This document shows positions 5,396 through 57,353 of a stretch of 64,000 nt of DNA, piece after piece. Location of the stretch: assembly GCA_902728285.1 (NCBI GenBank), contig CACVBU010000865.1, positions 3,425,008-3,489,007 on the forward strand, written 5' to 3'. The position numbers were made by a program, and so were the translations under genes. The DNA is from Clytia hemisphaerica (taxonomy: Eukaryota; Cnidaria; Hydrozoa; Leptothecata; Clytiidae). Within the stretch, counting starts at the first letter, position 1; each line of letters starts with the position of its first letter. Under the pieces are notes generated by a model that saw only the letters and a list, made by a program, of their open reading frames with translations, searched no databases and was not told where the DNA came from.

Positions 5396-5554
5396 TACCT
5401 TATCGGGGAAAACTTCGTCGGGGAAAAATATTCGTCACTTGCTGGTAGTTGGTAAACGCATTAAGGCCGGGGAAAATTTTCGTCGGGGAAAAATATTCGT
5501 CACTTGGCCAAAATTTCGTCACTTTTCCCCGACGAAGTTTTCCCCGATAAGGTA
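5396..5554. mobile_element. Small foldback element with TCGTCGGGG words (scaffold ACCTTATCGG)
   Basis: The left end is TACCTTATCGGGGAAAACTT and the right end is its complement, AAGTTTTCCCCGATAAGGTA. Inside, TTCGTCGGGGAAAA and TTCGTCAC are repeated several times. The same terminal scaffold, with TTAGTCGGCC words instead, bounds the much larger element at 39426-42758. At 159 bp it cannot code for a transposase. Confidence 0.8.
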
Positions 5555-6104
5555 CCTAATCTACGTTAGAGTACGCGTTAAAATGGGGAAGGTACGACAC
5601 CAGGCAGTCTGTTGGGAATATGAAATGAAAGAGATCTTAGAAGAATAAATCGTCCACAGTTTTTAGAGTTAATGTGGATGGCCCAGGGTAATTTAGAACT
5701 TTTAGACGGTGTTTTGAATGTTGTCGTGTTTCAATGAAATTCTGAACACACCACCAAATTAACCCTTGGATTCGTGCAGACACCCGAGGTTACATAATCT
5801 CAGGAAGCCATTTATCCCCTTCTCCATTTCCCCATCTTCTCATGATTGAAGTCAATATCAAATTATATTTGCTCCTCAGAAGGCTATTTGCCATTACCCC
5901 GTTTGTTTGACCCCTTTAACTACTTTCAAACCCCCTTTTCAAATCATTTTGACTAATTTATCCAAAACCCGTTTTCAGATTTTCTCTGTTCTAATGAAAA
6001 TTAGATTTTTGTAAAGCTAGGACAGGTAGTGCCTAGACAATGTTTTCACAGGGTCCACGGCCAGCCGGCTCAGGTTTCTATTGACTAAACCGAATTATGG
6101 AAAG
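5555..6104. other. Intronic DNA, nothing recognised
   Basis: It lies downstream of RNF113A exon 3 on the minus strand and should be intron if the gene continues left. No exon could be read. Confidence 0.4.
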
Positions 6105-6175
6105 AGAAGTGAGAGGTTCGAACTGAGAACCCCTGGTCCCAGGCGCTGGCGTCTTGACCATTCGGCCATCCTTGC
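6105..6175 (-). repeat. tRNA-like sequence (SINE head or tRNA pseudogene)
   Basis: On the minus strand the sequence begins GCAAGGATGGCCGAATGG, a good pol III A box of the Leu/Ser type. About 45 bases later comes GTTCGAACC, a textbook B box. The anticodon region is a CCTGG/CCAGG hairpin with no proper seven-base loop, and the 3' side does not re-pair with GCAAGGA. It is therefore not a working tRNA. It sits 22 bases past the RNF113A exon 3 donor, on the same strand. Confidence 0.65.
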
Positions 6176-6196
6176 AACAATTTTTATAACACCTAC

Positions 6197-6365
6197 CTGA
6201 CCATTCCACTGGAGGCGTTACCAGCAGCTGTGTCTCGTTTCTCGATGTATTGTGCATACCCTGTCTGCCCTCTGTAAATTTTATCATCCTCTTTCCCACC
6301 GAGTTCTTTGTTTTGTTTTTGTGCTCGTTCGAAAATCGCTTGTGCGTCTTGTCCGAACTCCGTAT
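6197..6365 (-). CDS. RNF113A: RNF113A/CWC24-type spliceosome RING protein, exon 3
   Basis: An acceptor TTCTTTCTTTTAG precedes the exon and a GTAGGT donor follows it. Joined to exon 2, the frame reads [17 protein letters not shown], then [11 protein letters not shown], then GNASSGMVR. These match the conserved stretch of human RNF113A ([37 protein letters not shown]). The exon enters with two bases of a split codon and leaves in phase 2, so the next exon should start with one base and encode KGPIRAP. That exon, with the CCCH zinc finger and C3HC4 RING, is not visible in the remaining 6 kb. It is either beyond the left edge behind a TE-filled intron, or lost. The family acts in pre-mRNA splicing (yeast Cwc24) and, in animals, in ubiquitin signalling. 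Confidence 0.88.
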
Positions 6366-6956: not shown

Positions 6957-7428
6957 CAGTTGACGCTCTCTAATTCGACGTTCTATAGTTCGATAAGCTC
7001 GCCTTTTCGATCAAATCTTAAGAAACTCTCATAGACGACGCCCTACTATTCGACATTCTATATTTCGATAAGCTCCCGTTTTCGATGAGAATTTGAAGTC
7101 CCTTGAAAGTTTTCCACTTTCTAATCATATTTCTGGCGTGTAAAGGCCTTCATGGTTGATTTCAAATTTCGATTCTTCTAATTTTTTTGTTCGAACGTTC
7201 GAATTGAAATTTTCCAAAACGAAATTTAAAACAAAAACAGACCTTCGACTGTAAAAATGGTGTCTGACACAGACGGTCAGAAGAAAAACTCGAGTCTCGT
7301 CTATACTTTACTCACCCAGCTCTATAATTCGATATTTGCCTTGTATTTATCGAATTAGAAAGACTTAGAAAGACGTATTCGATGAAATTTGAATTCCCCT
7401 TGAAAATCGAATTAGAGAGCGTCAACTG
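6957..7428. mobile_element. Foldback element AA1 with ATTCGA words
   Basis: The ends are CAGTTGACGCTCTCTAATTC and its complement, GAATTAGAGAGCGTCAACTG, so the terminal repeats are nearly perfect. Behind both ends the words ATTCGA, TTCGATAAGCTC and GACGTTCTATA/GACATTCTATA recur. It lies in RNF113A intron 2. Relatives are at 8786-8949 (intron 1) and 3455-3519 (one end). Confidence 0.82.
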
Positions 7429-7625
7429 TATTAATCGTATTAATATTGGTTTGCTTTTGTTAATAAAAAAAATCCAGGGGGGCTTGTTCGGAAAAAATGG
7501 TTTGTTTTAATTTTATATAAATCGATTTGATTGGTTTAGAAAAACAATTGAGACGCATAAAAGGAGAAATCAGAACACATAACAATTTTCTCTCTCGAAA
7601 AATTATTCTCGATTCTTTATTATCC

Positions 7626-8170: not shown

Positions 8171-8308
8171 ACTTGTAATGTAGCGCCGTTGGACGTTAGG
8201 TAAAGTTTTAGCACTGCAGTGCAGTGGCTTCTTTCCCAAAGAAAACACTTCCATCAGATCTGGTGGATATAGCTTAGTCCAGGGTTTATAAAGATCTGTG
8301 CTACCTAC

Positions 8309-8949: not shown

Positions 8950-8980
8950 TAATGCGAATGAAGGTTACGTAATAAAATAC

Positions 8981-12133: not shown

Positions 12134-12320
12134 GCCAGGCAATGTCAATCGAACTGTTCGATTACCGAACCAAATCCAACAGTCATCGAACCAAGAAATT
12201 CCGGTAAAGTTCGACTAGTTTGATAGATGTTCGATGTGTTTGATTAAGCTGTTGCTTTAGCAATAACTGGAGCCATTTGAGCTACAAAAACACTGATCGA
12301 ACTTAAGTTTTTGTGGATTT

Positions 12321-13179: not shown

Positions 13180-13670
13180 GATCTAATCGCACAATGGCTT
13201 TCACTACTTTTTCCTAGTTAGGAAAGTAAATTACAGAAATTAAACCGAGAGTTTTATATTTTTATCTGCTCTCTATGTTTTTCTTTTATTGTTGTTCATA
13301 GTTTTTCTTTCTCACAAAATGAATTTCGAATGCAATTAAAACGTTCGATGCAAAAAAAGATGTAAGAAAAAACATTAAAATCAACTTTGTAAACATTGGC
13401 GCGGCATTGAAGAGTGTGATTAACGATTAATTGCTCTCTACAGGATGCAATTAACAATTAATTGCTCTCTTTGAAGGCGCACCAAATGAGAAAAAATAAC
13501 TTATTGTGTGATTAACTTCGAAATCACACGAACAGAGTAGACGGGTCTCCCAGCTACAACAACTCAAGTTCTAATACCTAACACATCTACTTCTATGGCA
13601 ATTTGTTACAGACCCATGATACAGATTTGGTGCAATTCACCCTTAATCTAACTGCGATATACCGTAACTT

Positions 13671-13877
13671 GGTCTAATGTTGACACCCCTCCTCTAATTC
13701 CGACACCCTTTTTATCAGCTGAAATTTATAGAAAGGTTGAAACTGTTTTTCTTTGCTTAGCGGTCAGAGAGGTATGATCCTTTTTCAATCAGTGATTCGA
13801 GCTTTAATATTATTCCCTTCTCTAAAGAAGGGTGTCGGAATTAGACGAAAGATGTCAATATTAGACTAACTTACGGT
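13671..13877. mobile_element. TIR element K1 (ACCGTAA..GGTCTAAT family)
   Basis: The left end is ACCGTAACTTGGTCTAATGT and the right end is ATTAGACTAACTTACGGT. Subterminal blocks CTAATTCCGACACCCTT and AAGGGTGTCGGAATTAG pair. Copies are at 59669-59873 and, split by two insertions, at 25511-26804. Confidence 0.88.
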
Positions 13878-14449
13878 AAGTAATCGAACTATAATCAAAC
13901 ATCAAACTGAAGATTTTCCGGTAAAGTTTGATTACTGTTTGATCAGGTTCGATAATCGAACACCTACTGTTCGATTTCGTTTGATGAAATTTGATGGTTC
14001 GATTACCAAAATCGGTTTGATAGGGTTCGGTTGACATCACCGCCTGGCATCGGGGAGAAAAAGCTGGAACTTTTTCTTAATCCAAACTCATTGAACACCA
14101 ATCAAACTTCATTAGATGAAAAACTGTCATCAAACTTATATATATAATCAAACTAATCAAGAAATTGTCTTATAAATTAGGCTCGGTAATCGAACAGCTA
14201 TCTTTTGATTTCGTTGGGTAGCTTGACAGTTCAATTACGAAAATGATTGCTGAATTTCAATTGACATGATTTCTAGGAAATACGTGGAAATACTTGCTAA
14301 AGCAGATTGTTTGTCGCAACTGGTTAAAATTTAACACATAACTATCTGGTGAAAAAAGGAAAAAAAAAGATCATACCTGTGCTGTTTGGAGTTTTAGTGA
14401 AGAAGAGGGTTTTATGTGTTATTGTTGTGGAAAATCTTTCTGTACTACT

Positions 14450-18888: not shown

Positions 18889-19880
18889 CTTTTCGTTGAC
18901 TAGTCGTAGAATACCTCTTTTTACTTGCGGAATTGATGGTAAATTTTCATCTACGTTATTTTTAAAATGAAGCACAACCTAAAAAAAACGAAACTTCAGA
19001 AAGAATTGCATATTTTCAGTGAGTAAACGATTCTGACTAGCAAAAAATTGATGTTCGGCAAATGTCTCGCATTAGGGGTTCTAGTGTTAAGCCCTAAGTC
19101 TACGTGAGATTGAAGCGTTTAGGTAAACAAAACAAAATGAGACAAAACTCGAAAAAACTGGTGTTTTGAAGCGCTTCCGTGCGATTGAAATATCACTCTT
19201 TGTGTGGGGGACGAACAACACAGGATTTCCAAGGGCAAAGATTTTCACCAAAATTTGAAATTTCTAAGGCGAGAGAAGAAAATGTATGAATTTCCAAGGC
19301 AATTGAATTAAAAAAGGCAAAAAAGAGTGAAATTTCTGATGTATTTTGTAAAAGTACATGGATTTTCATTGGAATTTCTGACCACCACTGGAAAAGAAAA
19401 ATTATTTCTGAGGCTAGAAAGAATTAAATAATGCACGTCATCCAACGGGGTTAAATTTTCTGGGATGGCCCATTCAGGCTAGCTCTAAAGCTCTAAAACA
19501 GCAGCTAATAACATGAAAATCAGAATATGATTCTTCAATGGAAATCAAAACTGTAAAGTGCACTTACAAACAAACATCAATATGTCAAATCTAACAAAAT
19601 TAATAACAGCATCATTATCCCTTTATCTTCATTCCTATCTTAGAACTTTCGCAAAAAAAGGAAAATTAGAAAAATTGTATTTTTTACTGCTCTTTTCCCA
19701 TACTGAATTTGAAAGATCTTCTATGTGGCATGTTTTTATTACAAACTTCAAAAAACTTTTTTTTGAATTTTTGTCCCGCTTTTGCAGGACTTTAGCTTAA
19801 GTGCTTGCGTGCAGCATAGGGTATACAAAGTCCAAATATGCGTTTCCCCTAATTTTTGTATGAAGAGTTAGCTCTATCAT
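18889..19880. other. No gene recognised
   Basis: AT-rich DNA. The 80-residue plus-strand frame at 19558-19800 has no recognisable motif and lies in low-complexity sequence, so I leave it out as a gene. Confidence 0.4.
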
Positions 19881-20752
19881 ATGGCACGTGAAAGCACCAG
19901 TAAATACTATCTTGTTTAAAACTAAACTATGTTGTTAAAAAGAAACTATTTTTCATTCAGCGGATACTATCTCACTTTAAAAGAAACTAAGTTCGCTTCA
20001 GGAGAAACTATCTTGTTTAAAACAAAACTATCTCATTTAAAAAGAAACTAACTCATTTAGAAAGAAACTATCTTTTTTAACGAGTTCATCGGAAACTTAC
20101 GTCCAGAAAAGACGAGTTATAGTAAACGAGTTATAAATACTGTTTTATCAAAAAATCAAAAGCTGAGTAAGGAAGAGTTGTAACTCGAGCTTAGAAGAAA
20201 AAAGCGTGCTTTTTTAAGAACTAGCCGTAGAGGCTTACCAGCCGGGACTAAAAAGGAAAAAAACAAAGGAAAATTTTGGGAATTTTACGAACGTTTGCAG
20301 GACAAATTTGACCAATTTTGATCAAATTTTCTATCTTTCAGGGAGTAAAAAGTTGAAATTTTTCTTTTTTCCAGCCCCTTAGTGGGACTGAAATTAGATT
20401 TTCTGATTTTCCAGCCCTTAGCGGGACTTTGGAAGTCCAAAAATGGTACCCTTAAGGGCGGCACATACCGTATGCCTAAGTACCCATTTTGCCTATGTAC
20501 CTGTTGCGCAAGCTAGGGGTTTCCCCTTCTTTATACTCTAAAGTCTTTTTAAATGAGATAGTTTCGTTTAAAATGAGATAGTTTTCGTTTTAAAATAAGA
20601 TAGTTTCATTTTAAATGAACTTAGTTTCTTAGGGAAATAGTATCCCCTGAATGAAACATAGTTTCTTTTTAATCGAGATAGTATTGGTTTAAAATGACAT
20701 AGTAGTTTTGTTTTAAACAAGATAGTATTTATTGCCGCTTCTGCGCGCCATA
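19881..20752. mobile_element. Foldback element T with AAACTATCTC words
   Basis: ATGGCACGTGAAAGCACC at the left pairs loosely with the complement of GGCGCGCAGAAGCGGC at the right, and TAAATACTATCTTG pairs exactly. Behind the left end AAACTATCT(C/T) words repeat every 15-35 bases (about 19905-20080). Behind the right end their complements GAGATAGTTT repeat (about 20555-20740). The centre carries CCAGCC..TAG.GGGACT pieces on both sides of a short inner palindrome. No coding capacity. Confidence 0.75.
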
Positions 20753-21357
20753 CTATATACTGATGTAGCTATGTACCGAAAACTGCTCTAACTTGGGACT
20801 ATCTGACATTACTGACAAAACATGGGACGGCAATTCGGCCACCATTTTACCGAACCTCCAAAGTCATTTGATTTCAGTTAAGGAACGGCGAATTAAAAAA
20901 TACATGATTTCTCTTTCGATTTTACAGTGAGTGAAAATACAGACCAGATATGCAACAGTCCCATGTTTCGGCCAATCGTCCCCAAGTCAAGTTAGAGCAG
21001 TTAGTTGACGGTATTATGTCTATTAAAGTCAAAATTAGTACTAGTAATCTCATGGTTATAGGGAAATTCGGGATAAATTTCCAGAGTTTAATTTTGAAAT
21101 TTAAAACATTTCGAAATTTGACTGAGGGTAATTTATCCAGAATTTCACGAAAACAAGCATGGGATTCCTGGTTAATCTCACATGGGATTCCTGGTTAATC
21201 TCATGGTTTGGATTGAAATTCTAACAATTTTGAAAAACGTCAATTTAACACTGGAAATCAATCTGAAAATTCAAAAAGAGGTCTCAAAAAAGTCATAGAA
21301 ACGCGAATCGAGTTTTAATTGGATAGTATTCCATTTACTTAAGCCTTTGAACAGTCA
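20753..21357. other. No feature recognised
   Basis: Contains a small local duplication (CATGGGATTCCTGGTTAATCTCA, copies at about 21158 and 21180) that makes an 82-residue frame. No domain was seen. Confidence 0.4.
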
Positions 21358-22426
21358 GGAACAGTCGCCCTATTAGGAGACGTCTCTTAATCAAGAGACC
21401 CGTCTCCTAATCAGGAGGTTCACGTCTCCTAATTAGGAGACGGGTGTAATTATCTTGTGAACAAAGAAACTGTGCTTAATTTAGTTGCTCCGATTGGAAA
21501 GAACACAAAAAATTTATTCCATATGGTGATTTTCAGAAAAATCCACCGGTGGAATCAATCACAATTCTAATAATCCATAAGAACCAATCAGAAGTAAGAA
21601 TCTGTCTTCTGAACAAAAGCATCTCAAAGTCAAAAAGAAAAATGGCGGACATGAAAAAAATCAAGAGGGGCTTCCTTGTAGTGCTTTATATTAGGATTGT
21701 GATCGATTGCACCGATAAATTTTGATAATTTTTTTAAAACTTTACCAATTCGAGGCTGCTCTTTCCATTAAAACTAGTTTCAAAATGCGCGGAAAAGCCT
21801 AAAGCCCAGTCTGGGAAATCCTCTCAATTGCACGCTTATGTTCCGAGGCCGTAAGCGCGCAATTGCATGGTTATCAAAATGGCAGAATTTTTAAGCGTGT
21901 AGTTACACGCTTATCGAAATTGTTCTGAAACGGGCGATAAGCGTTAAGCAAGATTGACTGGTGACGGCTTTTGCGGTAAGCGTGTAATTGCACGCTTTAA
22001 AATTTCCTATATTTTTGACACGTAATTCCTTCCGAAAGCTCTGTTGAATTTCAAAAGCCTAGGGCAGTTTTACTCAAAATTTATCGTAGAAGAAGATTCC
22101 GTAAAAATGGATTGTCCGTTAAACCATGCCTTCGCCCGAATTAGAGAATTCTGAACCCCTTGAAATCCCTAAGCAATTTCAACCGGGGCGGGAGCGGGCG
22201 TAAATTATAACCATGCAATTACGCGCTTACGCCCTCGGAACATAAGCGTGCAATTGAGAGGATTTCCCAGACTGAAGCCCTTAAATATTGAGATCAAAGT
22301 TTTATGTCTCCTTATTAGGAGACGGGTCTCCTAATCAAGCGACCCCAAGCGACCTACATGTCTCCTAATCAGGAGACGTCTCCTAATCAGGAGGCGTCTC
22401 CTAATATAATAAAAGGCGATTGTTCC
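21358..22426. mobile_element. Foldback element N with CTCCTAATCAGGAG words
   Basis: The ends GGAACAGTCGCC and GGCGATTGTTCC are inverted. Behind each lie five to seven copies of GTCTCCTAATCAGGAGAC, itself a palindrome, at about 21370-21445 and 22305-22405. Element P (21807-22274) is nested inside. Confidence 0.82.
21807..22274. mobile_element. Nested foldback element P with GCGTGTAATTGCACGC words
   Basis: CAGTCTGGGAAATCCTCTCA and its complement are perfect terminal repeats over about 45 bp, through ATTGCACGCTTATGTTCCGA. TAAGCGTGTAATTGCACGCTTA-like words recur inside in both orientations. It is flanked by AAAGCC/AAGCCC, which may be a degraded target duplication. Confidence 0.88.
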
Positions 22427-22444
22427 TAGACCTAGTATTGAAGT

Positions 22445-24794
22445 CAGGGGGGGTCAAGCAGTTAATCCAGAACATCATCTGAGTAACTGATTTTGGATGA
22501 TATTTAGGACCACCCACCCATTCTGACACTTAATCCACTCTGGATTTACTGTTTTTCAGTCACAATCTTTGTATACCACCCCCTAAAGCAGTCCACCTAA
22601 ATATTTTGACATGCATTAAGTTTTTTTAATTGATGTTGGCTAACATCAAAAAATCAAAAAATAAATCATAAATCTTGTACACCATTTTTTGAGTGATTTG
22701 CCCCTCGATCAAAACCGGAAAAATGCTATATCTCGAGATTGGAAAGGAGTTAGGAGATGGTTGACCCCTCATTGGATCGGAAATTTAATGGAGAATAAGT
22801 TGGGAGGGGTAAGAGTTGGTATAAAGAAACTTTCGAAAGTAAATATATTCGAATCATGAGGCATTTTGGGTCCGATGACGTCATCAAATCCTGAAAAATA
22901 CAATATCTCGAGTTTGAGAAGGATTTAAAGCAATGGATGACCCCTCATTGGATCGGAAATCATCTAGACACTAGAGAATCTTTTGGGTAAATAATTAATT
23001 CATTTCAGTGAAGTGAACAATATTCATCAATTTTCGATGACGTCACTTAGGTCCCAAATGACGTCACCAAACATGAAATATGCGATTTTTCAAGCTTCGA
23101 TTATTGATAAGTGGTAATATTTCGTTTTTTCGGCTTAGAATTCAAGCTTATTACCCTCTACCACCGTCCAAAGGGCTTTTGATGTACGTTCAACATCACT
23201 CTACTCGGTGTTTTGATCGGTCTCGAGTGGCAATTTTTCATTCTTTGGGCGGGATTAATTCAGTCTATAGTTAGGCTCCCTTTTACTATCTACTCCTCGG
23301 CGGGTGTGACGTCGGGTGACGGCTAACACTTTACTCTGCGTGTGCTGGTTTAAAACAAACCATTTAAATAAAAAGGTTATACAAGCTGGCAAGCAGGCTG
23401 TTCCAACTGAAATATATTTCGCAAATTGTCTACCATTTTTAATCTGTTTTAATTGGATTTTTGATTACAAAAAAAGGGGCGAATCACCCGATTTTATAAC
23501 AGCTTGAAAATTAGTGAAAACAGAATTTGTAAACAAAGCAGGAGAAAGTTAAAGCAAGACTTTGATGCAGTTTGACGTTTTAAAGACAGAAAAAGAGACA
23601 AAAGCGAGCATGAATCAGAATAAATGAATTTTACAGAATGACAGAAAATGCAGTTAGTCCACTTTTTTTTCCCAGAATTCTTTCAGAGACCACCCCTTTG
23701 GCAGTTAATCCACTCTTGGATTAACTATATTTTTCAAAATTTGAAAATGGATCACCACGGTCAAAACAGGCATAGTGTTTTGGTAGCAACTCCAGAAGAA
23801 TTTTAATTTATTTGTAAAAACCTATCTTATCTTGTAGAGCTTTGAAAAAGAAAGAAAATAAGGGGTCATAGGCCTCCAGAGGATAAGTGGTTGTAAAGAT
23901 ATTCAAATTTTAGTGTCAAAAATTTGACTAAAAATGTCAAAAAAAAGGTTAGGAAAATAGCTTGGAAAAATTCGAAAAATGTGTCAAAAAAGAAAAAAAA
24001 GAAATTTTCCAGTCATGCTTCTTCAATTTTGCATATCTCTATTTCTAGTGTAGCTAGAGACCTGAAATTTGGAGGGAGAATTCTTTGATGGTGTTAGAAT
24101 ATCATTATATAAAAATATTTGAAAAAAGAAGACATTGCATTGTTTTATTTTTGTTTTTGAAGAAAATTAGCTTGAAAAAGGTTGAAATGAGTCAAAAAAG
24201 GTGGTAGGATCCATTTTCAAGGGGCCTCTGGAAATGGAGGAACAAAAACTTATGAATAAAGAATAAGTTTTTCTGAAAGGAGAAACCCCAAATGAAAAGA
24301 AAATCCATTTCGGCAGAAATGAAAACTTTTTTTTGGGACATTCCCATGCAAAAGAAGCAAAAAAGTGAAAAAAACTACATGAAAATGAAAGATTTAGAAT
24401 TAGCGATTGTGATTTTTGAATTCCTCACCCTTTTTCTGATAACCATACAAAGTTTCAGTCTTCAAATACATTTTCCTCCGTTTCCAGACACATTTGTTCA
24501 TCGATAGTTGGAAATTTTTTTTCTCCCGTCGACAAACAATTTTCAAAATGTTGCAAAACGTTCGGCATTTTACCAATTTGCCGTCTAGCCCGTGTCCACA
24601 GTCCTATATACTGCTGGAAAGCTAAGATCACGGGCTTTCATTTAGTAAAAACCGGATCGCTTTAGCATACATAGAAAAAAAGTTCGAAGGGTTCAAAGTT
24701 CACGGAAAAATGAAACATTTGGTTTGCCGTCAACGAAAGTTGCATGACTTCTGGAGTCGCTAGTTTTGGATTAACTGCTTTTTAACCCCCCCTG
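22445..24794. mobile_element. CAGGGGGG element Q, 2.35 kb, 7-bp target duplication
   Basis: The left end reads CAGGGGGGGTCAAGCAGTTA followed by ATCCA. The right end is TGGATTAACTGCTTTTTAAC followed by seven C and TG. TTGAAGT stands on both sides (22438-22444 and 24795-24801). Inside, further GGATTA.CTG / CAGTTAATCCA words sit near both ends and at about 22530-22560 and 23650-23730. A tandem pair lies at about 22720-23060. No transposase frame is visible. The architecture matches 32648-33236. Confidence 0.88.
22720..23060 (+). repeat. Tandem pair inside element Q, about 180-bp unit
   Basis: TATATCTCGAGATTGGAAAGG...GACCCCTCATTGGATCGGAAAT recurs as AATATCTCGAGTTTGAGAAGG...GACCCCTCATTGGATCGGAAAT about 180 bases later. 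Each unit contains a GATGACGTCA.-type sequence downstream. It is not coding. Confidence 0.75.
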
Positions 24795-26775: not shown

Positions 26776-26990
26776 TAAAGAAGGGTGTCGGAATTTTAGA
26801 CTTATAACGAAATGATAACAAACAAAAATACTTTACACACTGTATTTAAAGTTTGAAATTAAGTTGATTCTACTTAGCTCTTTGTTTTCATGTCTAACCC
26901 CCGTCTCAAAAGAAGTCCCAGAATCCCGAGATTTTTGCAGTCCCGAGGGCGTTCAAAACAAAGGTGTTTTTATTTTTCCGCCCACTTACA

Positions 26991-27937
26991 ACCAGAGTGA
27001 TCTCAATCGAACGAAATCGACGATCGAACCAGTCGAACCAAATCGACCGCAATCGACCGATTGAAATTCGATTGTCGAATGCAATCAAATCTCAATCGAA
27101 TATTAGGCGATGGGAATTTGATGTTCTGTTTACCGTCGACCGCCCGCATGCTCTTGAGCCGCCGCTCAAAAAAGTTCATTATTTTCTTCTTTTCCTGTGC
27201 CAAGCTATCCAAAACACTCAAAGTGAATCAAAAATAACATCTTCGCTAACAAAATGTGCGCCTCGAGTAAAAAACATGGTTCCAATCACGTCTGCGAATG
27301 GGGCGGGCATTTTTTTAAGCAGATGGCGGCATCAAGGGCGTTTTAGAAATTTGCGTTTTAGACGCATCTCGAACGCGTTCGAATTTTCGCGCATGTCATT
27401 TTGATTCCGAAAGTGAAAGCAGCTCGATTTCACGGTGGAATTCAACTTCGTTGGAGATTGGAAGCACTAGGTAGGAATAATGAATAATGAATAATGAAAT
27501 TTTGCCGCATCAAATATTTTTTGAAACGCGAAGGTAAACAGAACATCAAATTCCCATCGCCTTACCGCAATTTTCAGATTCAATTGCTATTCGATTGCGT
27601 TCGATTGCGTTCGATTGATGTTCGATTGCGTTAGATTGCGTTCAATTGTTGATTCATTGAACCCCGGATTGTTCATCACATAATTTCTACGGGAAATCGA
27701 ATTTAATTTCATTCGACTTGTGATGTTTGAGAGCTTGTATGTTGGAAAGCTGCAAGAATAAAGCCAGACGATCTCAACCGAACGGAATCTACGATCGAAC
27801 CAGTCGAACAACAATCGAACCAATCAAATATTACCCAGAATTTTGACGTTCGACAATCGAATTTCAATCGGTCGATTGCGTTCAATTTGGTTCAACTGGT
27901 TCGATCGTAGATTCCGTTCGATTGAGATCGTCTGGTT
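26991..27937. mobile_element. Composite foldback BB with ATCGAAC/GATTGCGTTC words
   Basis: ACCAGAGTGATCTCAATCGA at the left pairs with TCGATTGAGATCGTCTGGT-type sequence at the right. Further in, GGCGATGGGAATTTGATGTT and its complement (27106 and 27541) pair. The words CGATCGAACCAGTCGAAC and TCGATTGCGTTCGATTGCG dominate both ends. The right end from 27763 is itself a second hairpin. The 146-residue plus-strand frame at 26964-27404 is made of these words and has no known domain. Confidence 0.78.
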
Positions 27938-32019: not shown

Positions 32020-33445
32020 GTTTTTTGTGTTTTTATTTTGTTCCAGTATTGGTTTTTCAGGAAAATGATTCCCAGTTGCAGAGGAAGTGATCTTCATTAT
32101 ATTTCTGGGAATATAACCCCTGTGTGTAAGATACATCTTACACAAGGGAATTTATTTTTCAATAAAAAACATATCTTTATAATTCTAAAGGAAAATCACT
32201 TTCCTGATATCTCAAGAAATAAATGTTTTTTGCAAGACAAATTATGTTTTTGTTCTCATAGAAACTGATAGAAATGATGTTCTGAATGCTCTTTATATTT
32301 TTTTTCCAGGAAATTTTAACATAACGTCAGACTGGGTTTAGGTCGCAGAAATTAGGTTCCCTCTGAGTTTTAAGTCCCCCAAAAGATTCATAAATTTTTT
32401 TGGTAGCCCCCAGGGCTTTCTACCCTCAACACTTTTAAAAGTTTTTCAATTTCAATTTCACTTTGAAAACTACTTATGTAGTATTTTTCAAGAAAATTAC
32501 CGTTGTATTTCTCAAGGAAAATTGCCTATGTTATTCTCAAAGAAAATCTTTTGGTATTCTCAAGTAAAATTACTTTTTTGTATTTCTCAAGGAAAATTAC
32601 TCTTCTATTTCTAAAGGAAAATTATTTTTGTATTTCTCAAGGAAAACCAGGGGGGCACGCAGTTACTACAAGACATGATGTGTAGTAAGTGCTTTTTCAA
32701 CACTTTTTTTCAGGACCACCACCCTTTGCAGTTACTACACCTTGGTAGTAACTGTTTTCAGAAAAGATTTCCAGGTACCACCCCTGTTTTTGAGTGATAT
32801 CATCAAAAACATGCTCGAAATTACCCTAAATTGCGATTATTTTTCAACCTAAAGCCATTTTTGTGCTAGATTTTCTTTTAATTTACTTGGTTAACAGCTG
32901 TTGAGAACATTTTAATGATAATTAGGGAAAGCATAATTTCAAAGTTGGGTCTGAGAAAAATTTCAAATTTTTTTTCGTCCATTTATAACAAAAATATTTT
33001 TTTTAACAAAGAATTTTTTCACAAAAAAATTCATTTTTGGTGAAAAATTTTGAAAGTTCTTTAAAAAGAATTAAAATATAAGCACTTACTACACCAAAAG
33101 TGCTAGCGTTAGTGTTTGGCACCACCCCCAAACAGCAGTTACTACACTGTGTAGTAACTGTTTTCATAATACAGTACCACCACGGTAGTAAGTGTCATAC
33201 TGTCTTGTAGTAACTGCGTGCCCCCCCCCCCACCTGGGAAAACTACCTTTGTATTTCTCAAGGAGAATTACCTTTGCATTTTCTCAAGGAAAGCTTTTTT
33301 TTTTACTGGCATATTTAAAAAGTCTTACAGACCTACTTTTCCGGGACAGTTAATTGTCTTGTTGTCTGGTAGGTTTATTTTTTTCATTTTTTAATAATTT
33401 ATTACTGTATCCCTTTCATAACCTTCAGTCTTCTTTTTTTAATAG
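32020..33445 (+). other. Kinesin intron 1 with a TCAAGGAAAATTAC array and element R
   Basis: At 32490-32645 and 33238-33300 the word TTTCTCAAGGAAAATTAC repeats about every 25-30 bases. Element R (32648-33236) interrupts this array. Scattered AAGGAAAATGA words from 31670 upward suggest an older, larger array. The 60-residue frame here is an artefact of the array. Confidence 0.7.
32648..33236. mobile_element. CAGGGGGG element R, 589 bp, 7-bp target duplication
   Basis: The left end is CAGGGGGGCACGCAGTTACT followed by ACAAGAC. The right end is GTCTTGTAGTAACTGCGTGC followed by a C run and CACCTG. GGAAAAC stands on both sides (32641-32647 and 33237-33243). Inside, GCAGTTACTACA / TGTAGTAACTG words form subterminal hairpins at about 32733-32755 and 33133-33160. 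The plan is that of element Q at 22445, with a different word. It lies in kinesin intron 1. Confidence 0.9.
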
Positions 33446-39389: not shown

Positions 39390-40904
39390 TGCAAACTTCT
39401 GACATTTTTAATAATATTCTTTACCTACCTTATCGGCCAAAACTTAGTCGGTCTTAATTTTAGTCGGCCTTAATTATTAGTCGGCCCTAATTTTAGTCAC
39501 CTCGTCAAAATTTAGTCACTAAGGGCCGACTGTTAATTAAGACCGACAAAAAAATGGGCCATTTCTAAATTTACAAGCAGATGGAAAATAGACACTTTTT
39601 AATGATAATTCACAGATTTTTAATACTTATCATGGATATATTTCAAAAACAAGTAAATAATCAATAATAACAACGTACAGTGGGGCTTTCGCATGTCTTT
39701 ACACGTACGCGAACCTTGCGTGTCAGGGACTCGCAAGCGGCTTCTTTCACTATTGAAAACCTATTTATTGGCGACTCGTAGCCTCGAATTAATAGGGACA
39801 CTCAAGCTATTTAAAACAGGTCAAAAGCCTATTATAATCTGCGTGTTGAGTGTCGCAAGTCTTCTTATGTGCGAGTGCTCCTATTGTTGGACGCTTAACA
39901 GTTGCTTAAATCGTTTTATAAAAATGTATTCTGCTTAGGATGGAACTAAAAGGCTTGAAATGAAAGAAAGTAAACTTTTTCTTTTCTCCTTTTTAATTCA
40001 ATTTTACTTTTCTTTCAGTCTAAAATTTCGAAATGTAGTAAGGAAACAACGGAAACAAATGTTGTTGCTATTAAAAGAATTGAATATAGAAAATTAAATG
40101 AAATTAAATGAAACAACTAGAAATTTAATAAAAGTATTGAATTAAGACTTCCTAATCTGAATGTGACGTTATAATATACAAATACTGGATATTTTAACTA
40201 GTCTCACCTGTCCAGAAATTTATTCTGGAAGAATCGTTTTGGAAAAAAAAGTTTTAACCCTTATTTTTTCACTCTGACAACGTTAACAAAAAACACTGAT
40301 GAAACGTCAATGAAAATAGCTATCATTTTTTAGTGTCCTGAAGCTTTACCCCCCCCCCCCCGTTTAAAAAAACACTATTGGCAATACTTTGTTTATATGG
40401 TTAACGTCCATGGGTTAATGTATCGGCATTTGGCCTGGCCAACCATGTCCCAAAAGCTTTTAATACCATCAACTAGTTGATCTTATGTCATCGGTAATGT
40501 TATTTCTGAGATGATATTTCATTTCAGCCCATAGCATAGGTTTTTACATTTAATTTTTTTCTGAGTTCTTCTAATTTCATTTACTCATAAGGTTATTATT
40601 ACCCTTTGTTAACCGGTTACTTTTTCGAAGCGGGCTACATGGCTTTTTGCGCAATGCAATTGGTTCTTTTCGCATGACGACGGGCCTACATTGTCCAGAG
40701 TTGCCCGTCGTTAGGAAAATTCATTGTGACGTCACTTTTTCAAAGGAAAATGAACAATGCGTTGACATCATTTCTCTCATTTTTTATTTCTGACGTCAGA
40801 AATTATAGCAATTTTTTATTTCTTTTCGCTTGTTTTTTCTGCTTTATTTCGCTATTTTTCCTGGATAAAGCGCTAAAAATCAATCAAAGTTGAAGGAAAC
40901 GGTT

Positions 40905-45728: not shown

Positions 45729-45871
45729 TAGACCTTTTTTCAAAGAGGACGCCCTGTTGAATAATTATGTAGTCCAGCTATAAAAACAATGATAGAGCCA
45801 TGCATAATCACTGTTTCATGCATATTGTAATAATTATGCAAGGTTTTATCATTGTTTTTCTGCTGGACTAC
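45729..45871. mobile_element. Foldback MITE, family A copy 2 (right end missing)
   Basis: Matches 814-996 from TAGACCTTTTTTCAAAGAGG to CTGCTGGACTAC. It stops where the CGCGAAAATT element begins, losing the last ~45 bases. Confidence 0.85.
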
Positions 45872-45877
45872 CTTATT

Positions 45878-46106
45878 GGAACTAATTTTCGCGGGTTTTA
45901 ATTTTAGCGTTTTTCGCGGTTTTTCGTCAAAATCGCGAAAATTTGATCCCGCGAAAATTTTTGAGAGTTGAAAACCGCGAAAATTAATTCCCGCGAAATT
46001 CAATTTTTTCCAATTTTATCGAAAAATTTGAAAAATCCCTAGGAAAATGGAAGAAATTTGTCCAGAAAAGGGCAAAACCGCGAAAATTAAAACCCGCGAA
46101 AATTCC
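45878..46106. mobile_element. Foldback element with CGCGAAAATT words
   Basis: GGAACTAATTTTCGCGGGTT and its complement AACCCGCGAAAATTCC bound 229 bp in which CGCGAAAATT / AATTTTCGCG / CGCGGTTTT words recur about ten times. It breaks into MITE A copy 2. Confidence 0.8.
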
Positions 46107-46287
46107 AGAAAGGAAAAAACCACCTTTTCAAAGAATCGCCTCCTTACACCACGCCAGCAAGAAATAATTTTCGGAAGCACCAAAATCGCGCCAAAAATGG
46201 TGGATGAAATCTAGTCTTCCGTGTGGCGGGGCGTGAGGAGTTTTGCTGGCGCGGTCTGAAAATTGGCCCGATGACTGTTAAACTTTA

Positions 46288-49210: not shown

Positions 49211-49222
49211 CAAGTATATATA

Positions 49223-50335: not shown

Positions 50336-51001
50336 TTTTACAAATAAGATCATTAATTTAGATCTGAAAAAATCAGTTCCCCGGAGGACTCAAGTGCAAT
50401 TATGCCAACTTTTCATGTTATAGAGCAACGAAAAATTGAAAAAATCACTTTTAGAAATCCGAAAAACCTTTTTCTCAATGCAATTTTACTATTTTCAAAC
50501 ACCTCTGACATCTTTGCCCTTAAAAGGACAACACATTTTGCTGATTCAGCATTTCATCGTTAAAAAAATTGCAGTTTTCAGCAATAATTTCCGAAACGAG
50601 CAATAATTGCGGTTTTTATCTTAAACACCCGACTGGCAGAGGGTTCTCTCCTCATAAACTGATATCAAATATACCTTGAGATCGGGTAACTTTCATCAAT
50701 GGAGGCTAACATGCATAGCCCTCAAATGAATGACCTGGCTCTGGTCATTGTGAATTGTGAAATACTAAGTTAAATCAAAACAAAAATGGTAAAGTATTTT
50801 TTTTTTTTTAATTTTTTGGAAAGATAATTTTATCAGCTTTCAAATGTGTGGTAGAGTCAATTTTTTCGTCATGGGGAAAAAAAGTTACAGACAAAAGAGT
50901 GACACTGACAGGTGGTAAAAATCAAAAATACCGACAATGAGTTTTTAACGATTTTCAAAAATCTTCCATAAGTAGGATTGAAACAAGGTACAGCCTTCAA
51001 A
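50336..51001. other. No feature recognised
   Basis: AT-rich, non-coding by eye. Confidence 0.4.
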
Positions 51002-51448
51002 TAGACCTTTTTTTAAAGAGGCCACCCTGTTGAATAATTACGTAGTCCAGCAGAAAAACAATGATATAGCCATGCATAATTATTACAATATGCATGATAC
51101 AGTAATTATGCATGACTGTATCATTGTTTTTATGCTGGACTCCTTAATTATTCAACAGGGTTGCCTCTTCATAGAATGTACCCCCCCCCCTGAGCTTAGG
51201 GGGGGGGGCTAAACCATTATTGCTTGATTGGGGGCTGTATTTTTCAAAAAATACTGGGGGCTAGAAAATCTATGCTGTGGGGAAGGTTTTGTCCCTCTTG
51301 AAAAATTTATCAAGAATTTCCATACAAAATTTCTTTGATGTTTTGCTTTGTGAAGGTGGGGGCTGTGTTTCTAGAATTTAGCCCCCCCCCTGAAATATGC
51401 TGGGGGCTAGACCCCTCTGCACACTATGCTCTTTAAAAAAAAGGTCTA
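51002..51448. mobile_element. Foldback MITE, family A copy 3, split by an insertion
   Basis: The MITE runs from TAGACCTTTTTTTAAAGAGG to GCCTCTT (51169) and resumes at CTCTTTAAAAAAAAGGTCTA (51429-51448). Joined, it matches 814-996 closely. The 259 bp between are a separate element. Confidence 0.88.
51170..51428. mobile_element. Nested element with GGGGGCTA words, CTCTT duplication
   Basis: CATAGAATGTA and TGCACACTATG are imperfect inverted ends. CTCTT is present on both sides (51165-51169 and 51429-51433). Inside, GGGGGCTA / TAGCCCCC words occur six times in both orientations, beside C and G runs at 51181-51210. Confidence 0.78.
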
Positions 51449-51451
51449 TTT

Positions 51452-52417
51452 CAGTGGAAACAAGAATGCGTGTAACTTTTGATAGTCCGATATAATTTCG
51501 AAATTTTTTTTTGCTTGTTTTATAACAAAAGAGCTATATTTGCATGTTTTTTTGGTTGAAAAATTTGCAATATTTAGTGGTTAAATTTACAATTGCAAAA
51601 ATTGCTTTTTTTCTACTTATACTACAACCTTATCATTTTTACACAAGTGGTAGTTCAACCGTAGGTTAAGAAGGATGTGAAATTTCAAGGCAAACGGAAA
51701 AGTCCTTCAGAAGATATTGGACCCAAAATACCCCTTGGTAGCACTTTTCTGTGAAACATCAAATCTCCAAATTTTTAATAAAAACGGGGGTAGTGATGAT
51801 AAAACAGTTTTTCAATCATAGCACATTTTACGATCTTTTTACGATAATGACCTCATGTAGTGTTTTGGGAATTAGCAAAGTTCTTTAAATTACTTAAAAA
51901 TAATAAAGGCAATATAAGTTCAATATGCTTATTGTTTCAACAAAACAATCACACTGTGATTTCACTTCTTTTCAAAATAATCAATGATACTAATAGTACC
52001 AATGCATCAGCACTTTAAACACTTTCCAACTTTAAATTGCACTGTTCAAAAAAAGGTAAAAAAGGTAACATAACCCCCGTTTTTAGTAAAAATTTTAGAG
52101 ATATGATATTTAACAGAAAAGTGCTAGCAAGAGGTATATCGGGTCCCATATCTTCCGAAGGACTTTTCTGTTTGCCTTGAAGTTTGACAGTTTTCTTAAC
52201 CTAAGGTTGAACTGCCACTGGTGTAAAAATGACCGTTGTAGCGTATGTAGAAAAAAAGCTAATTTTTTTGTAATCGCAAATTTAACCGCTAAAAATCGCG
52301 AATTTTTCAGCCAAAAATACATTTAAATATAGCGCTTTTGATTTTCTAAAACAAGCAAAAAAAATTTTTGCAATTATATTTGACTATCAAAAGTTACATG
52401 CATTTTTGTTTCCACTG
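51452..52417. mobile_element. Large inverted-repeat element Z2 with CAGTGGAAACA ends, 0.97 kb
   Basis: CAGTGGAAACAAGAATGCGT and the right end ATGCATTTTTGTTTCCACTG pair. The arms continue with mismatches for about 330 bp, through GTAACTTTTGATAGTC, CAAGGCAAACGGAAAAGTCC and CGGGGGTA, around a 250-bp centre. It abuts the end of MITE A copy 3. No coding frame. Confidence 0.88.
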
Positions 52418-53381
52418 CCTATTATATCTGGATAAACTTTAAAGACTTAGGAAATCCAAAAAATGTCAAAATTGACGATGATGTCATCAAAAATGACAAA
52501 AATTGACCAAAATGACCAAAAATGACATTGTAGGGTTTCTATATATCCACATCACGAAGATTCTTTGGATTTTACTTTCACATTGTGAATGTTGTAAGTA
52601 TTTGTCTATACCACATTGTATGTTATTAATCAAGATTTAGTATTTTTGCTAACCAATCTGATAAGATTTTTTTTTATACTTATGTTACATATAACTTTTT
52701 AATTCTAATTGAAGATAATATTTATTTATTTATTTATATTTATAAATTAAATATACCAGTGGATACCCCTTAAAACCTACAACAAAAAAAGGTACCCCCT
52801 ATATCCTGATAGAGAAAACAGTAAGGGCTGAAACTTTTTCTGGTGAGTCTAGGCTACCAATGAATTTCTTCCCTACTATACGTATGGTGTTTTGTAAAAG
52901 CTGCTAAGAAAATTTTGATTGCTTTGTGAAAAAATGTAGTTTTAGTTATTCACCCCTTAAAACCTACAAAATGATTTTCTTGAATAACTTTTTATAAAGT
53001 AGTCCTTTTTGGTTTCAAATTTTGAACAGTGATTCACTGCAAAGTTATTTATGCTACAATTAGATCATTGGTACCTAAATATTTTAAAAACTGTACGTTA
53101 TAAAATCAGAATACACCTTAAAACCTACACTATTACACCTTAAAATAAAACCTACAAACATTGAACCCCTTGCTCACACCCTAATGAAACTGTGAAATTG
53201 CAATTCAGATGCTGAATCGTGATTAAATTGATCAAATACTTGCTAGAAATCTATTCCCAAACAATATTTATATTTTTTAGGATTTCATGCCCATAATGCA
53301 CAAAATTTGCGCCTGGTTTTTGTCAAAAAACGGCTTTGAAGGATCAAAACGTTTATTCAATTCATTTTTGACGTATGTTAC

Positions 53382-53537: not shown

Positions 53538-54152
53538 ATGTTTTTCTAAATCACCATCAAATTTGTGACATTTTGGTATGCAATATGACCATGTTTTGTG
53601 AAAGTCGATTTTCATATTTTATTGGCCACTTCCATGAATGAGCTTTTTTTTAATAGAACTTTTACGACCTTAAATTCAATTGCATGATCTCTAGGTCCGA
53701 AAAATTTGATTTTTCGGAGGGGGTTTTTGATAAAATTTTGAATAACTTCAAAATTTACAACACTTGGCGATAATCAAAATTCTTGAAATTAGGGATTTTA
53801 TGAAAGTACCTATATATATAAGAGGTTGTAAAAAAGTGAATTATACAGAATTATACAGAGTCTGTTAAATGACGCGCCTTCCATTTATTGACGCGCCCAC
53901 GCGCCTTACGCGTCCACGCGCCTCACTTGCCCACGCGCCTCATGCACATTTAAGTTTTGACGCGCCTTATTATCGACGCGCCCTAAATTTTTGACGCGCC
54001 TTACGCACCTTATTACCGACGCGCCCTATTAATTTTTGATGTAATTAGTTCTTTTAAAGCAACGAAGGAATTGTGTTTAACATCAGCATATTTATTTTTC
54101 TTATAAGCATCGTCTTTATAAGAAACCAATCAATAACTTTTGATTTGAGGCA

Positions 54153-54308
54153 ATAGACGATATCGGCTTTCCGAATTCTCCCCGAATGATTACCCATGAT
54201 GCATTGCGCAAAAGAATTCACAGACGATATTAACTTTCCATGAATTTTTTTGCGCAATGCATCATGGGTAATCATTCGGGGAGAATTCGGAAAGCCGATA
54301 TCGTCTAT
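54153..54308. mobile_element. Foldback MITE, family J copy 2, inside one arm of Y
   Basis: TAGACGATATCGGCTTTCCG and its complement; arms of about 65 bp through GAATTCTCCCCGAATGATTA and ATGCATTGCGCAAAA. The opposite arm of Y (about 56270-56285) reads straight through AGGGGATTAGGC on its complement, so it preserves the empty site. Confidence 0.92.
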
Positions 54309-54859
54309 TAGGCTTTCGGTAATTAGGAAAAAAAATTCAAAAATTTTGTTAATAATATGAGGGAAAAATAAATCAGACAAATTAATTTGGAAATAAATGC
54401 TACTTGACAAAGTTTACCATGCATCTTTAAATCAATAGTTTTAAAAGTATGCTTACGCACCAGCCCTATCTGATCAATAATAATGTAATGCCTATGTATG
54501 CCTCTATAACATTCTTCAAAAAGAAGTAAACTATTTTTGATAAAAGCCTCGGTATCACATAATTATTGAAAAATTGGAATTATAGGAGATTCAGATTGAA
54601 GGAAACCAATTGAAAGTTTTGTTACGAAAATGATGCTTGTAAAAACAAGTATGCTCACAGTATGCAGGGATACTACATAACTTGGACCCCCCAATATGGA
54701 CCCCAAAATGGACCCCATTATGGACCCCAATATGGCCCCCTCAAAAATGGCAGGCAAAGCATTTTGGGTAATTTCCCAGTATTAGAGTTAGTTATTAGTA
54801 GTCATTACACTTAAAAATCACTTTTTTGTAAGCACGTGGTGTTTTGACAAAATGCTGAC

Positions 54860-55620
54860 ACCCTCTTGACATATTTGACAAAAATATTGACAAAATCATA
54901 AAATATGATGCCTAAGGCGAGACCAATTTAATTTGTTATTCTACGGGCAGATCGTTAGCAAAATATGGGTCGGTCGGTCGGTAAAATAAGAATAAATTTT
55001 TCATTTATCAGGGTTGGTAAGGTACCGAAAATGTTTTCCCAAAAATATCTGGTTCAAAAATTCACTTTTTTTATCTTCGATGAAGATCATAATAAAATCT
55101 TAGTGTATGGAATGCTTGATTTTCTAAATTTTTTAATTTCTTGAATTAATTTTCAGCTTTATTCAAATTTGATTCTTACAAATAAGTAGTGTGTAAAATA
55201 TATTGTAGTGGAAATTCAATATTATTATTTTTTTGATTTTAGCAAAAATAGGGTCGGTCGGGCCCGTAGAACAACAAATCTCGCCTAACTAGACAATAAC
55301 ACAAAAAATATTTATTATACTGAATGTGATGTGGATAGGGTGAGTGGATATAAAATGGCACCAATCAGAAGCTTGTGAGGTTCCTAAGAGAGTGATTTTA
55401 GAAGGATGAAACTAATTAATTATTCAATTGTGATTTTAATGACTGAATGACGCTTTTTGACAAAAATACTAACATAATCATAAAATATGATGCCTATCAA
55501 GACAAAAATACCAAAAATATTCATCATACCGAATGTGATTATAGCAATGTGGCTGGATATAAAATTACCCCAATCAGAAGCTTGTGAGTTCTCTGAGAGG
55601 GCAGTTTTAGAGCGATACAC
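54860..55620 (+). repeat. Imperfect tandem pair in the centre of Y
   Basis: AAATATTGACAAAATCATAAAATATGATGCCTA with ATACTGAATGTGAT, GATATAAAATGGCACCAATCA and GAAGCTTGTGAG (copy 1, split over 54885-55415) recurs as copy 2 at 55455-55615. A 375-bp element separates the two parts of copy 1. Confidence 0.82.
54913..55287. mobile_element. Nested TIR element with GGCGAGA..TTCTACGGGC ends
   Basis: The left GGCGAGACCAATTTAATTTG...TTCTACGGGC pairs with the right GCCCGTAGAACAACAAATCTCGCC. TA flanks both sides. (GGTC)n words stand near each inner end (GGGTCGGTCGGTCGG at 54967; GGGTCGGTCGGG at 55251). Tandem copy 2 at 55490 lacks it (ATGCCTATCAAG). Confidence 0.85.
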
Positions 55621-57353
55621 AAAAGGCTTGAGTTACATTATAGCCGAGTTATTCCGAGTTATTTGAGCTGAACAGGCTCAAAAATGATGTTCCTTAGTTT
55701 ATCTTTAGTTGAAACCTCATCAGCTATCTTTCTATTTTTAAGAAGTAACTTAATGAGTGATATTGTGAAATGTATTCGAGTTATTCGAGTTGTAACTTGG
55801 CTTCAAAAATCTTAATTTATATGGCTTATTGATCTTTAAAAACTCGTTTTAAGAGTAGATCAATAGTTCTTTAGACTTAACCCTGACTTAACGAAGAAGC
55901 TGAAGTAAATATATAAGTCTAGAAAGACTTTAGCGTTTGATCAACTCGTATAACTCGGACTAATCTTTAAAATATTTATCATTACTCGATATCATGTTGT
56001 AAGATGAAATGTATATCTATTGACATGAACCGGAAGCTTTGAGAGCTGGTTTTGATATTTCCCGCCATTTTTAAGGGGGTTCATATTGGGGTCCATAATG
56101 GGGTCCATTTTGGGGTCCATATTGGGGGTCCAAGTTATGTAGTATTCCCAGTATGCACAACATATTTGATTTATGAAAAAAGTTATTACCGAAAGCCAAA
56201 TTCCCTTAAATCATTTTGTTTGATTGATTGGTTTTTTATAACAAGAATACTAATTACTGAAAGCCTAATCCCCTCAAATCAAAAGTTATTGATTGGTTTC
56301 TTATAAAGAAGATGCTTATAAGAAAAATAAATATGCTGACGTTACACACAATTCCTTCCTTCCTTTAAAAGAACTAATTACATCAAAAATTAAAAGGGCG
56401 TGTCGGTAATAAGGCGCGTAAGGCGCGTCAAAAATTTAGGGCGCACCAATAATAAGGCGCGTCAAAACTTAAAGGCGCGTGGACGCGTAAGGCGCGTGGG
56501 CGCATCATTAAATGGTGGGCGCGTAAGGCGCGTCATTTAACAGACTCAATTATACAATATTAAATTAAGTTTGGTAGTTAAGGGCTCTGACCGTAGTGAA
56601 TTTTTCATAATTGCTGTGTTTAAAATGTGTTTTCTGACTGATGTAACCAACAAAACTATTGCATGTTATACATAGACAAACTATTCCTGAATCTGAAAAT
56701 TCAAAAATTGCATTGAAAAAATTTGATGAAGAAGAAAATGAAGACTTTTGCGAGGAAGAGTATTTCAACTTTATAAAGCTTAGTTTCGGCGAAGAAAAAA
56801 CATTTTGAAAAAATTTTTGCAGTAGATGGTGTATCTTTTACCGAACAATAAAAATTTTTGTGGAAAATTTTTGTAAATGCTTCTTTGTTTCAAGATCTTC
56901 AAAATAGTGGTTTTTCATCAATTTTTCATCTGGATTTTGCTTAAAAAACAGTCATAACTTTTGACACATCTTTTTAGAAAAGTTTTCCGCAAAATTTAAA
57001 ATAGTTCAATTCTTTGCGGACAGTTTGAAAAAAGTTCGAAACAAAAAGATTAATTACCCATTAAAACTTAGCACTTTTTATAAAGGAAGGTGATGCAACA
57101 TATTATTAGCGTCTTTTCAAAGTTCATAACGCCATTTTTGCAATTAAGTTCTTAATCACTCTTAAGGGATTTGATTAAAAAGCAATTTATAAAGGCAATT
57201 CTTTGTTAAAAGTGTTAAAGAATCTAAAATATAACTTTTATGTTCAGATACTAAAATCAATTTTCTGACTATGATCAGAGCCCTTATTAAGAGAGCCTAA
57301 AGTGCAACTTTGTAGGTTTCAAGGGGTATGTGGTTTTAAGGGGTATCCACTGG

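Follow-up and report, generated by a model that had tools for sequence, protein, structure and literature searches.

Multiplied binding sites in transposon ends are already known. In the titles, abstracts, and open-access text that we drew on here and below, the transposase of the hAT element Herves binds a motif that is present several times in its ends, and variants of that motif with one base changed compete less (PMC3143072). The BED domains of Hermes bind subterminal repeats asymmetrically (PMC10368747), subterminal repeats are likewise present in Ac/Ds, another hAT element (PMC3260210), and left-right asymmetry of the ends has been described for P, Hermes, and Herves. We analyzed a 64-kb stretch of the Clytia hemisphaerica genome (the window; C594:3425008-3489007 of assembly G000, 417 Mb in 951 contigs) and found inverted-repeat elements in which a short word lies in several copies behind a short tip, with different words in sister families that have a common tip. 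As in Herves and Hermes, a short motif is repeated in both, unlike, ends, where it is read by the transposase in hAT elements (PMC3143072, PMC10368747). Unlike in hAT elements, several superfamilies in one genome have this arrangement, and sister families combine a common tip with a different word.

Other systems are similar in part. Galileo, a foldback element of the P superfamily, has long, internally repeated ends with secondary binding sites in the tandem repeats, and it makes 7-bp target site duplications (TSDs), as do our elements E and F; the Galileo F subfamily has ~210-bp tandem units, unlike the 10-bp words of E and F, which are in both orientations (PMC3573991). Zebrafish THAP9 and Drosophila P transposase favor different sites, a case of related transposases with different DNA-site preferences, and end-wide concerted change of the kind seen here is not described for zebrafish THAP9 in the text available to us (PMC10983969). 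Tetris and other Mutator-type foldbacks are modular, with 8-10 bp TSDs, and two of our elements (I and the element nested in it) likewise have 9 bp; unlike here, the Tetris repeats are 220 bp (PMC4079207). No MULE domain was found in two pairs of I-type ends in this genome. The coral CMITEs are cnidarian families related by a common part, as here, with an interior that is more conserved than the terminal inverted repeats (PMC2872659), in contrast to our elements, which conserve the tip and vary in the word. Our literature search found no description, in titles, abstracts, or open-access text, of ends in which the word was replaced throughout and the tip stayed fixed. It is an open problem how a transposase can acquire a new recognition site if that site is present in many copies, all of which have to change with it. 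Here the states before and after such a change stand side by side in one genome, on identical tips, in two scaffold groups with good support and in a third that is weaker.

Sister families on common tips

The elements of the window that belong to these groups, and element J, are as follows (window coordinates; strand is given where one is assigned).

32648..33236: element F, tip CAGGGGGG, nine copies of the word CAGTTACTAC / CACTTACTAC, 7-bp TSD GGAAAAC; identified from words and TSD.
22445..24794: element E, tip CAGGGGGG, word CAGTTAATCC (4 of 9 words carry ATCC), 7-bp TSD TTGAAGT, which sets the right end at 24794.
5397..5553: element on scaffold ACCTTATCGG, words TTCGTCGGGG / TTCGTCAC, TA target, flanked by T and A, with C in 6 of 6 T-x-GTC words.
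39427..39560, + strand: one end of a sister family on scaffold ACCTTATCGG, word TTAGTCGGCC; the family was seen in loci L048-L069, and the right end of this copy was not identified in the window.
45870..46114: element G, third family on the TA scaffold (ACCTTATTGG), word TTTTCGCGGG, right end imperfect.
53858..56547: element I, tip GAGTCTGTTAAAT, word GACGCGCC, 9-bp TSD AATTATACA; words above shuffles.
54667..56148: element nested in I, tip GGGATACTACATAACTTGG, word CCCCAATATGGA, 9-bp TSD CAGTATGCA; words above shuffles.
21807..22274: element J, tip CAGTCTGGG, word AATTGCACGC, 5-bp TSD AAGCC, nested in element D (below); identified from words and TSD.

Families in scaffold group 1 (CAGGGG / CAGTTA tip) differed in their words. 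E and F have CAGGGGGG-nnAn-GCAGTTA in common, and the sequences diverge after it. The pattern CAGGGGG-N5-GCAGTTA[not C], predicted from these two elements, had 83 matches in the genome and none in its reversed control. A single sequence, CAGGGGGATCAAGCAGTTAG, accounted for 35 matches and may be one old insertion copied within another repeat, because its left flank was nearly identical at the six loci compared; 48 matches remain. The words on this tip were CAGTTA followed by CTAC, ATCC, GTAC, ATAC, or CTCC; CAGTTACTAC and CAGTTAGTAC are words of two sister families.

F is a miniature inverted-repeat transposable element (MITE) by its length (589 bp, under about 600 bp), inverted ends, constant TSD, and many near-identical copies. 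Near-full-length copies were at 40 places, including F itself, with 96-100% identity (96-98% for the 39 others; 40 scored of 631 candidates). The TSD was exactly 7 bp in 23 of the 24 copies parsed (6 of 30 loci were not parsed by the regular expression), and in all 6 of the 16 group 1 loci that were two-ended, three of which were from one family.

Words within an element tended to be alike. The tail was CTAC in 9/9 words of F, GTAC in 8/9 of L088, ATAC in 5/9 of L082, and CTCC in 3/8 of L084. Internal words were identical to the terminal word of their own element in 20 of 34 cases, compared to a shuffle mean of 4.67 (0 of 100,000 shuffles). This test used five elements (F, L088, L082, L084, and E), one per word, with terminal copies dropped and the right terminal word taken for L084; L091 and one-ended loci were left out. 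We also measured family information in 31 internal words of the five elements (one L088 terminal copy included) with positions 7 and 9 free, the constancy of other positions being partly imposed by the search mask. Position 7 had 1.07 bits and position 9 had 0.66 bits (0 of 5,000 shuffles each), and position 3 had no family information (p 0.90).

The words had changed in place. We aligned the ends of L088, L082, L084, and E, each with those of F. In L088 (270 aligned columns, 76 differences), C>G was present at word position 7 in 8/8 copies, and position 9 was unchanged in all eight; each end held four of these copies, and both strands were represented. Of the four copies at one end of L082, three had C>A and one had C>G; of the four at the opposite end, two aligned well (C>A and C>G) and two did not. 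L084 differed mainly at position 9, with A>C in 5/7 aligned copies and scattered changes at position 7, and the one end of E that was compared had C>A at position 7 in 3/4 copies. Concerted change was thus complete in one comparison (L088 and F) and partial in the others. The spacers between words remained alignable, indicating that the arrays did not arise by simple regrowth from a single copy. Group 1 ends were of two kinds, one reading ..TTAxTACCGTGGTGG and the other with an inverted second word and then ACCACCACC; by eye, 5 of the 6 two-ended elements carried one of each, and the right end of E fit neither.

Families in scaffold group 2 (ACCTTATYGG tip, TA target) had the words TTCGTCGGGG, TTAGTCGGCC, TTTTCGCGGG, and others. 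The pattern ACCTTATCGG-NN-AAAA-N-TT-N-GTCGG, which covers TTCGTCGGGG and its sister word, had 2,084 genome matches with no more than one mismatch (reversed control 0). We compared 20 elements, and 19 had T before and A after, the TA target of Tc1/mariner elements (including pogo). These elements were 77-410 bp with 3-14 counted words each, and word copy number is therefore fluid within TA families. The x of T-x-GTC was C in 54 of 58 words of ten TTCGTCGGGG elements and A in 77 of 79 words of nine TTAGTCGGCC elements; the twentieth (L006) had mixed words and a third end type. The combinations GG/C and CC/A were never mixed in 35 ends. The 3' ends of the TTCGTCGGGG and TTAGTCGGCC families (5 and 4 copies) aligned without gaps over ~62 columns with 13 differences, of which seven fell at word positions and six did not. 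When the comparison covered 76 bp, with the last word copy shifted by one base, C>A was present in 4/4 word copies and GG->CC in 3/3 pairs. The scaffold pattern without both word features had 841 matches (control 0). Among 100 of these listed there were two common further ends, AAAAAAATGTCGG and CTAATTTTCGCGG, the latter being the window's CGCGAAAATT family, which is that of element G; the rest were a few other ends and some variants of the first two families.

CpG decay was ruled out as the source of the word differences in both groups: the changes that tell the families apart (C>A, GG>CC, C>G) are transversions, and CpG-type changes were present as scatter between copies.

The third scaffold, GAGTCTGTTAAAT (9-bp TSD), was weaker than groups 1 and 2. 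With a pyrimidine at base 26 it had 47 genome matches, the window's own two ends excluded, and the control had 8. Fourteen matches continued as GACGCGCC, three exactly as TGCGCGCC and six as close variants, and 14 of the 47 were in a CATA..AATAGT group that may be unrelated.

Possible origins of the family-specific words

Based on the patterns in these ends, we think it probable that the words are transposase-binding sites that changed in concert as transposase specificity diverged, leaving each family keyed to its own enzyme. The elements would be cut-and-paste DNA transposons of several superfamilies, mostly non-autonomous as far as seen, and each end would have two parts: a short fixed tip for cutting by transposase, and then several copies of the word, in both orientations, recognized by the DNA-binding domain of transposase. 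A transposase variant with altered recognition would have spread element copies with matching words, giving rise to a family keyed to its own enzyme, and families would have parted when recognition changed. Sister families would thereby retain the tip and the layout, with one or two positions of the word altered in the majority of its copies or in every copy. We infer that transposase reads the word and that selection, not conversion, fixed the changes. Co-evolution of ends and transposases had been suggested for this window, and it gains support at the DNA level to the extent that families with a common tip differ by the same substitution in corresponding word copies, in all copies in one case and in part of them otherwise.

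A broader proposal, which is possible and which we make more tentatively, is that transposon families in this genome speciate by re-keying, with tip and layout fixed and one or two positions of a 10-bp word changed across both ends, yielding many mutually orthogonal transposon-transposase pairs that use one catalytic platform, in more than one superfamily in parallel. If true, this would provide sets of transposon ends that do not cross-react. Few base pairs are altered and their identity is known, so the step at which recognition changed is directly testable. For repeat annotation, sister families can hide behind different words.

Several results weigh against transposase recognition as the explanation. 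Internal words matched in only 3/7 cases in L082, 2/6 in L084, and 2/7 in E, and the terminal words of L084 were unlike each other (TTAT at the left, unlike the right). We compared, by eye, the lists of scaffold ends with genome matches to transposase domains (at least 142 THAP, 150 P RNase H, 77 DDE_1, 99 hAT [PF05699], and 91 MULE [PF10551]), and no gene with any of these domains was tied to any scaffold. None of the 142 THAP matches was seen within 10 kb of the 83 group 1 ends, and the nearest of the 150 P RNase H matches was 7.2 kb away, about chance level. The J scaffold had 372 genome matches (control 0), and long J-type pairs among the matches listed contained no THAP, DDE_1, P RNase H, hAT, or MULE match. 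About two thirds of 100 J matches listed had one identical continuation and most others looked like variants, indicating that J is mainly a single-word family. Lastly, the three word copies of element A (6957..7428, below) bear three different tails and give no support for concert there.

The main rival, which we consider unlikely, is that the words of an end were homogenized neutrally, by slippage or by gene conversion over short tracts; a mutation in one copy would reach the others by chance, and the transposase would stay the same. Variable arrays, such as those of the 20 TA elements, and the incomplete concert in L082, L084, and E would fit, and for Galileo, recombination and conversion between the long terminal inverted repeats have been proposed (PMC3573991). 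However, distances of up to ~550 bp separated the changed copies, which occurred in either orientation and in both ends, the spacers kept their own differences, and the identical two positions (7 and 9) varied across families. Replication slippage, also named in the original prediction, fits the varying number of words in the TA elements but not the changes between families, which were in place and on both strands with alignable spacers.

It is improbable that the families had independent founders, with a common tip joined to unrelated interiors and the words being interior sequence amplified later. The elements are unlike in length (589 bp for F, 2,350 bp for E, and 504 bp for L088), as such an origin would allow. 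However, alignment between families extends far past the tip, over the first 100-150 bp, and takes in a common GGTGGTG/ACCACC motif and the two unlike end types. Independent founders are already unlikely for the CAGGGG and TA groups. Least probable of all is that the words are bound by a host regulator or silencing factor and changed in escape from it, for which there is nothing specific beyond the at least 142 THAP-domain matches in the genome, most not shown to be transposases, and against which the words start directly behind the tip, as do transposase sites in hAT elements (PMC3143072, PMC10368747).

Superfamilies and transposase genes

The word elements had four classes of target duplication (TA, 5, 7, and 9 bp), ruling out a single superfamily for all of them and indicating several superfamilies with a common plan. 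The elements had been described as one class; they are instead a convergent plan and not one family. The TSD of hAT elements is 8 bp, unlike the 7, 9, or 5 bp or TA found here, and that of J was 5 bp (AAGCC; one copy examined). The Mutator (MULE) TSD is about 9 bp (range 8-11), and I and the element nested in it had TSDs of this length.

The P superfamily is our first guess for group 1. The P-element site is AT(C/A)CACTTAA, which the CACTTA/CAGTTA core resembles, and the TSD was 7 bp, as in Galileo, in F, E, and six other copies; this is within the 7-8 bp of the P superfamily and is not exclusive to it. We do not claim membership, because the P elements compared (Drosophila, zebrafish, and Anopheles) have 8-bp TSDs (PMC7776569, PMC10983969, PMC1562414) and no P or THAP gene was close behind the 83 ends.

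Searches inside the ends gave leads only. No DDE_1 match was seen inside end pairs among the matches listed (100 of 2,084 and 100 of 841). There was no MULE match in the I-type pairs C773:67651-72359 and C831:392918-395016, and no hAT match in long J-type pairs among 100 of the 372 matches listed; these pairs may be non-autonomous. J-type ends 2-8 kb from each other include those at C129:1703557-1706922, C130:270462-273199, C169:42968-46034, and C177:86590-90174. One MULE match was ~1 kb inside a CAGGGG end (C691:912633), which is close to what chance would give for this many tests. Together with a MULE match on C18 and a weak DDE_1 fragment on C643, it makes three near coincidences where ~0.5 are expected by a rough estimate, and these are leads only, since mobile elements cluster. 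We read by eye the open frames inside seven CAGGGG ends that had no partner and recognized no transposase among them; the interior of L083 reads like reverse transcriptase. Eight THAP loci of ~3.2 kb had no CAGTTA words, and no inverted repeats were found around them, although the real ends may lie outside.

Two further observations concern transposase genes. Six P-type RNase H matches at C870:32974-47261, at ~2.8-kb spacing on one strand with two stops each, form a tandem array of P-like genes. Nine pogo-type DDE_1 frames (on C652, C669, C882, C112, C195, C197, C202, C256, and C460) were 509-511 amino acids, of equal score and without stops, which suggests recent spread.

Word enrichment and other features of the window

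The word-end plan was real but not universal among the inverted-repeat elements of the window. Self-comparison of the window gave 44 inverted pairs within 6 kb, some elements occupying several rows. We compared the commonest 8-mer in each arm with 200 dinucleotide shuffles (threshold p<=0.005 in at least one arm; nominal single-test p values) at the 13 places nominated in the original prediction and in 18 other inverted-repeat elements, two arms each. The word was above shuffles at 8 of the 13 places (5397-5553, 19877-20755, 21357-22427, 21807-22274, 32648-33236, 39427-39560, 45870-46114, and 53858-56547) and in 1 of the 18 others; with 10-mers, the numbers were 7 of 13 and 2 of 18. At these eight places, short words were directly inside the inverted ends, mostly in both orientations (at 39427-39560, one end only). 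The sole 8-mer positive among the 18 was the element nested in I, whose word, CCCCAATATGGA, had not been predicted, and the 10-mer positives were this element and 46532-47212, the latter with simple AAAATGAAGA. The others, mostly near-perfect palindromes and including 13660-13878 and 59670-59877, were not above shuffles.

The claim of a short family word behind each end therefore stands at eight nominated places and is weak at the other five: 6957 (best arm p 0.025), 22445 (p 0.025, for another word), 26990 (p 0.08), 12134 (p 0.115), and 51170 (p 0.30). No inverted pair was found at 12134 in the window self-comparison. Over-representation of the words was present in the arms and absent from the raw genome-wide count: GTAGTAACTG by itself had 1,939 matches, compared to 2,262 for its reversed control. 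The signal is the clustering of words at fixed spacing behind a scaffold rather than raw word count. That the words are satellites merely adjoining the elements was rejected where tested; the TSDs were outside the words, and the words travel with the elements.

The remaining elements in the window are as follows.

21357..22427: element D, with short AGGAACARTCGCC ends and the word CTCCTAATCAGGAG, above shuffles; no TSD was found in a scan.
19877..20755: element C, with a TATAGTATGGCGCGC end and an array of the 20-bp word AAACTATCTCATTTAAAAAG, above shuffles; the target may be TA (a weak, 2-bp match).
51170..51428: element K, tip CATAG, word GGGGGCTA, 5-bp TSD CTCTT; in single arms the word did not exceed shuffles.
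26990..27937: element B, CCAGACGATCTCAATCGAAC ends, word CAATCGAAC, marginal enrichment; a hairpin relative is inside it at 27764-27935.
6957..7428: element A, tip CAGTTGACGCTCTCTAATTCGA, core TCTAATTCGA, unlike tails, flanks TG (left) and TA (right); enrichment weak.
3464..3520, - strand: single end, CAGTGGACTCTCTCTAATTCGAACC, that may belong to a sister of A, with three TMTAATTCGAACC copies.
13660..13878: TACCGTAA element, words TCTAATTCCGACACCC seen by eye.
59670..59877: relative of the TACCGTAA element at 13660, words TCTAATTTCGACACCC seen by eye.
51451-52418: further inverted-repeat element, based on the 5-bp TSD CTATT.

A, the end at 3464, and the elements at 13660 and 59670 have a common TCTAATT-CGA core with different tails. 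No convincing TSD was found in the scan for A, B, C, or G, for which there were only 2-4 bp matches at shifted borders.

A palindromic MITE family, AATAGACCTTTTTT, was present at 812-998, 45743-45877, and 51000-51450. Two of the three copies are broken by or adjoin word elements: G adjoins the truncated copy at about 45743-45877, K is inserted in the copy at 51000-51450, and the relative at 812-998 is uninterrupted.

The window has a GC content of 34.5% and reading frames of METTL1, DENR, and kinesin type (the last below the curated cut-off), plus two reverse transcriptase frames, which mark it as animal DNA; Rfam and tRNA scans of the 64 kb gave zero matches. There were tandem arrays of 184-bp and 48-bp units at 1224-2014 and 41196-42103, and a 35-bp array, TGGCGGGACTGAACTGCAAGTATATATA, at 48233-49010 with a hairpin inside (48324-48470) and an inverted variant array nearby. 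Elsewhere in the genome, at L062/L063 (C8 near 173295), a 250-amino-acid frame has repeated RPRPG-RR units, which suggest a hydrozoan cnidarian host, and is presumably similar to an RPRPamide neuropeptide precursor.

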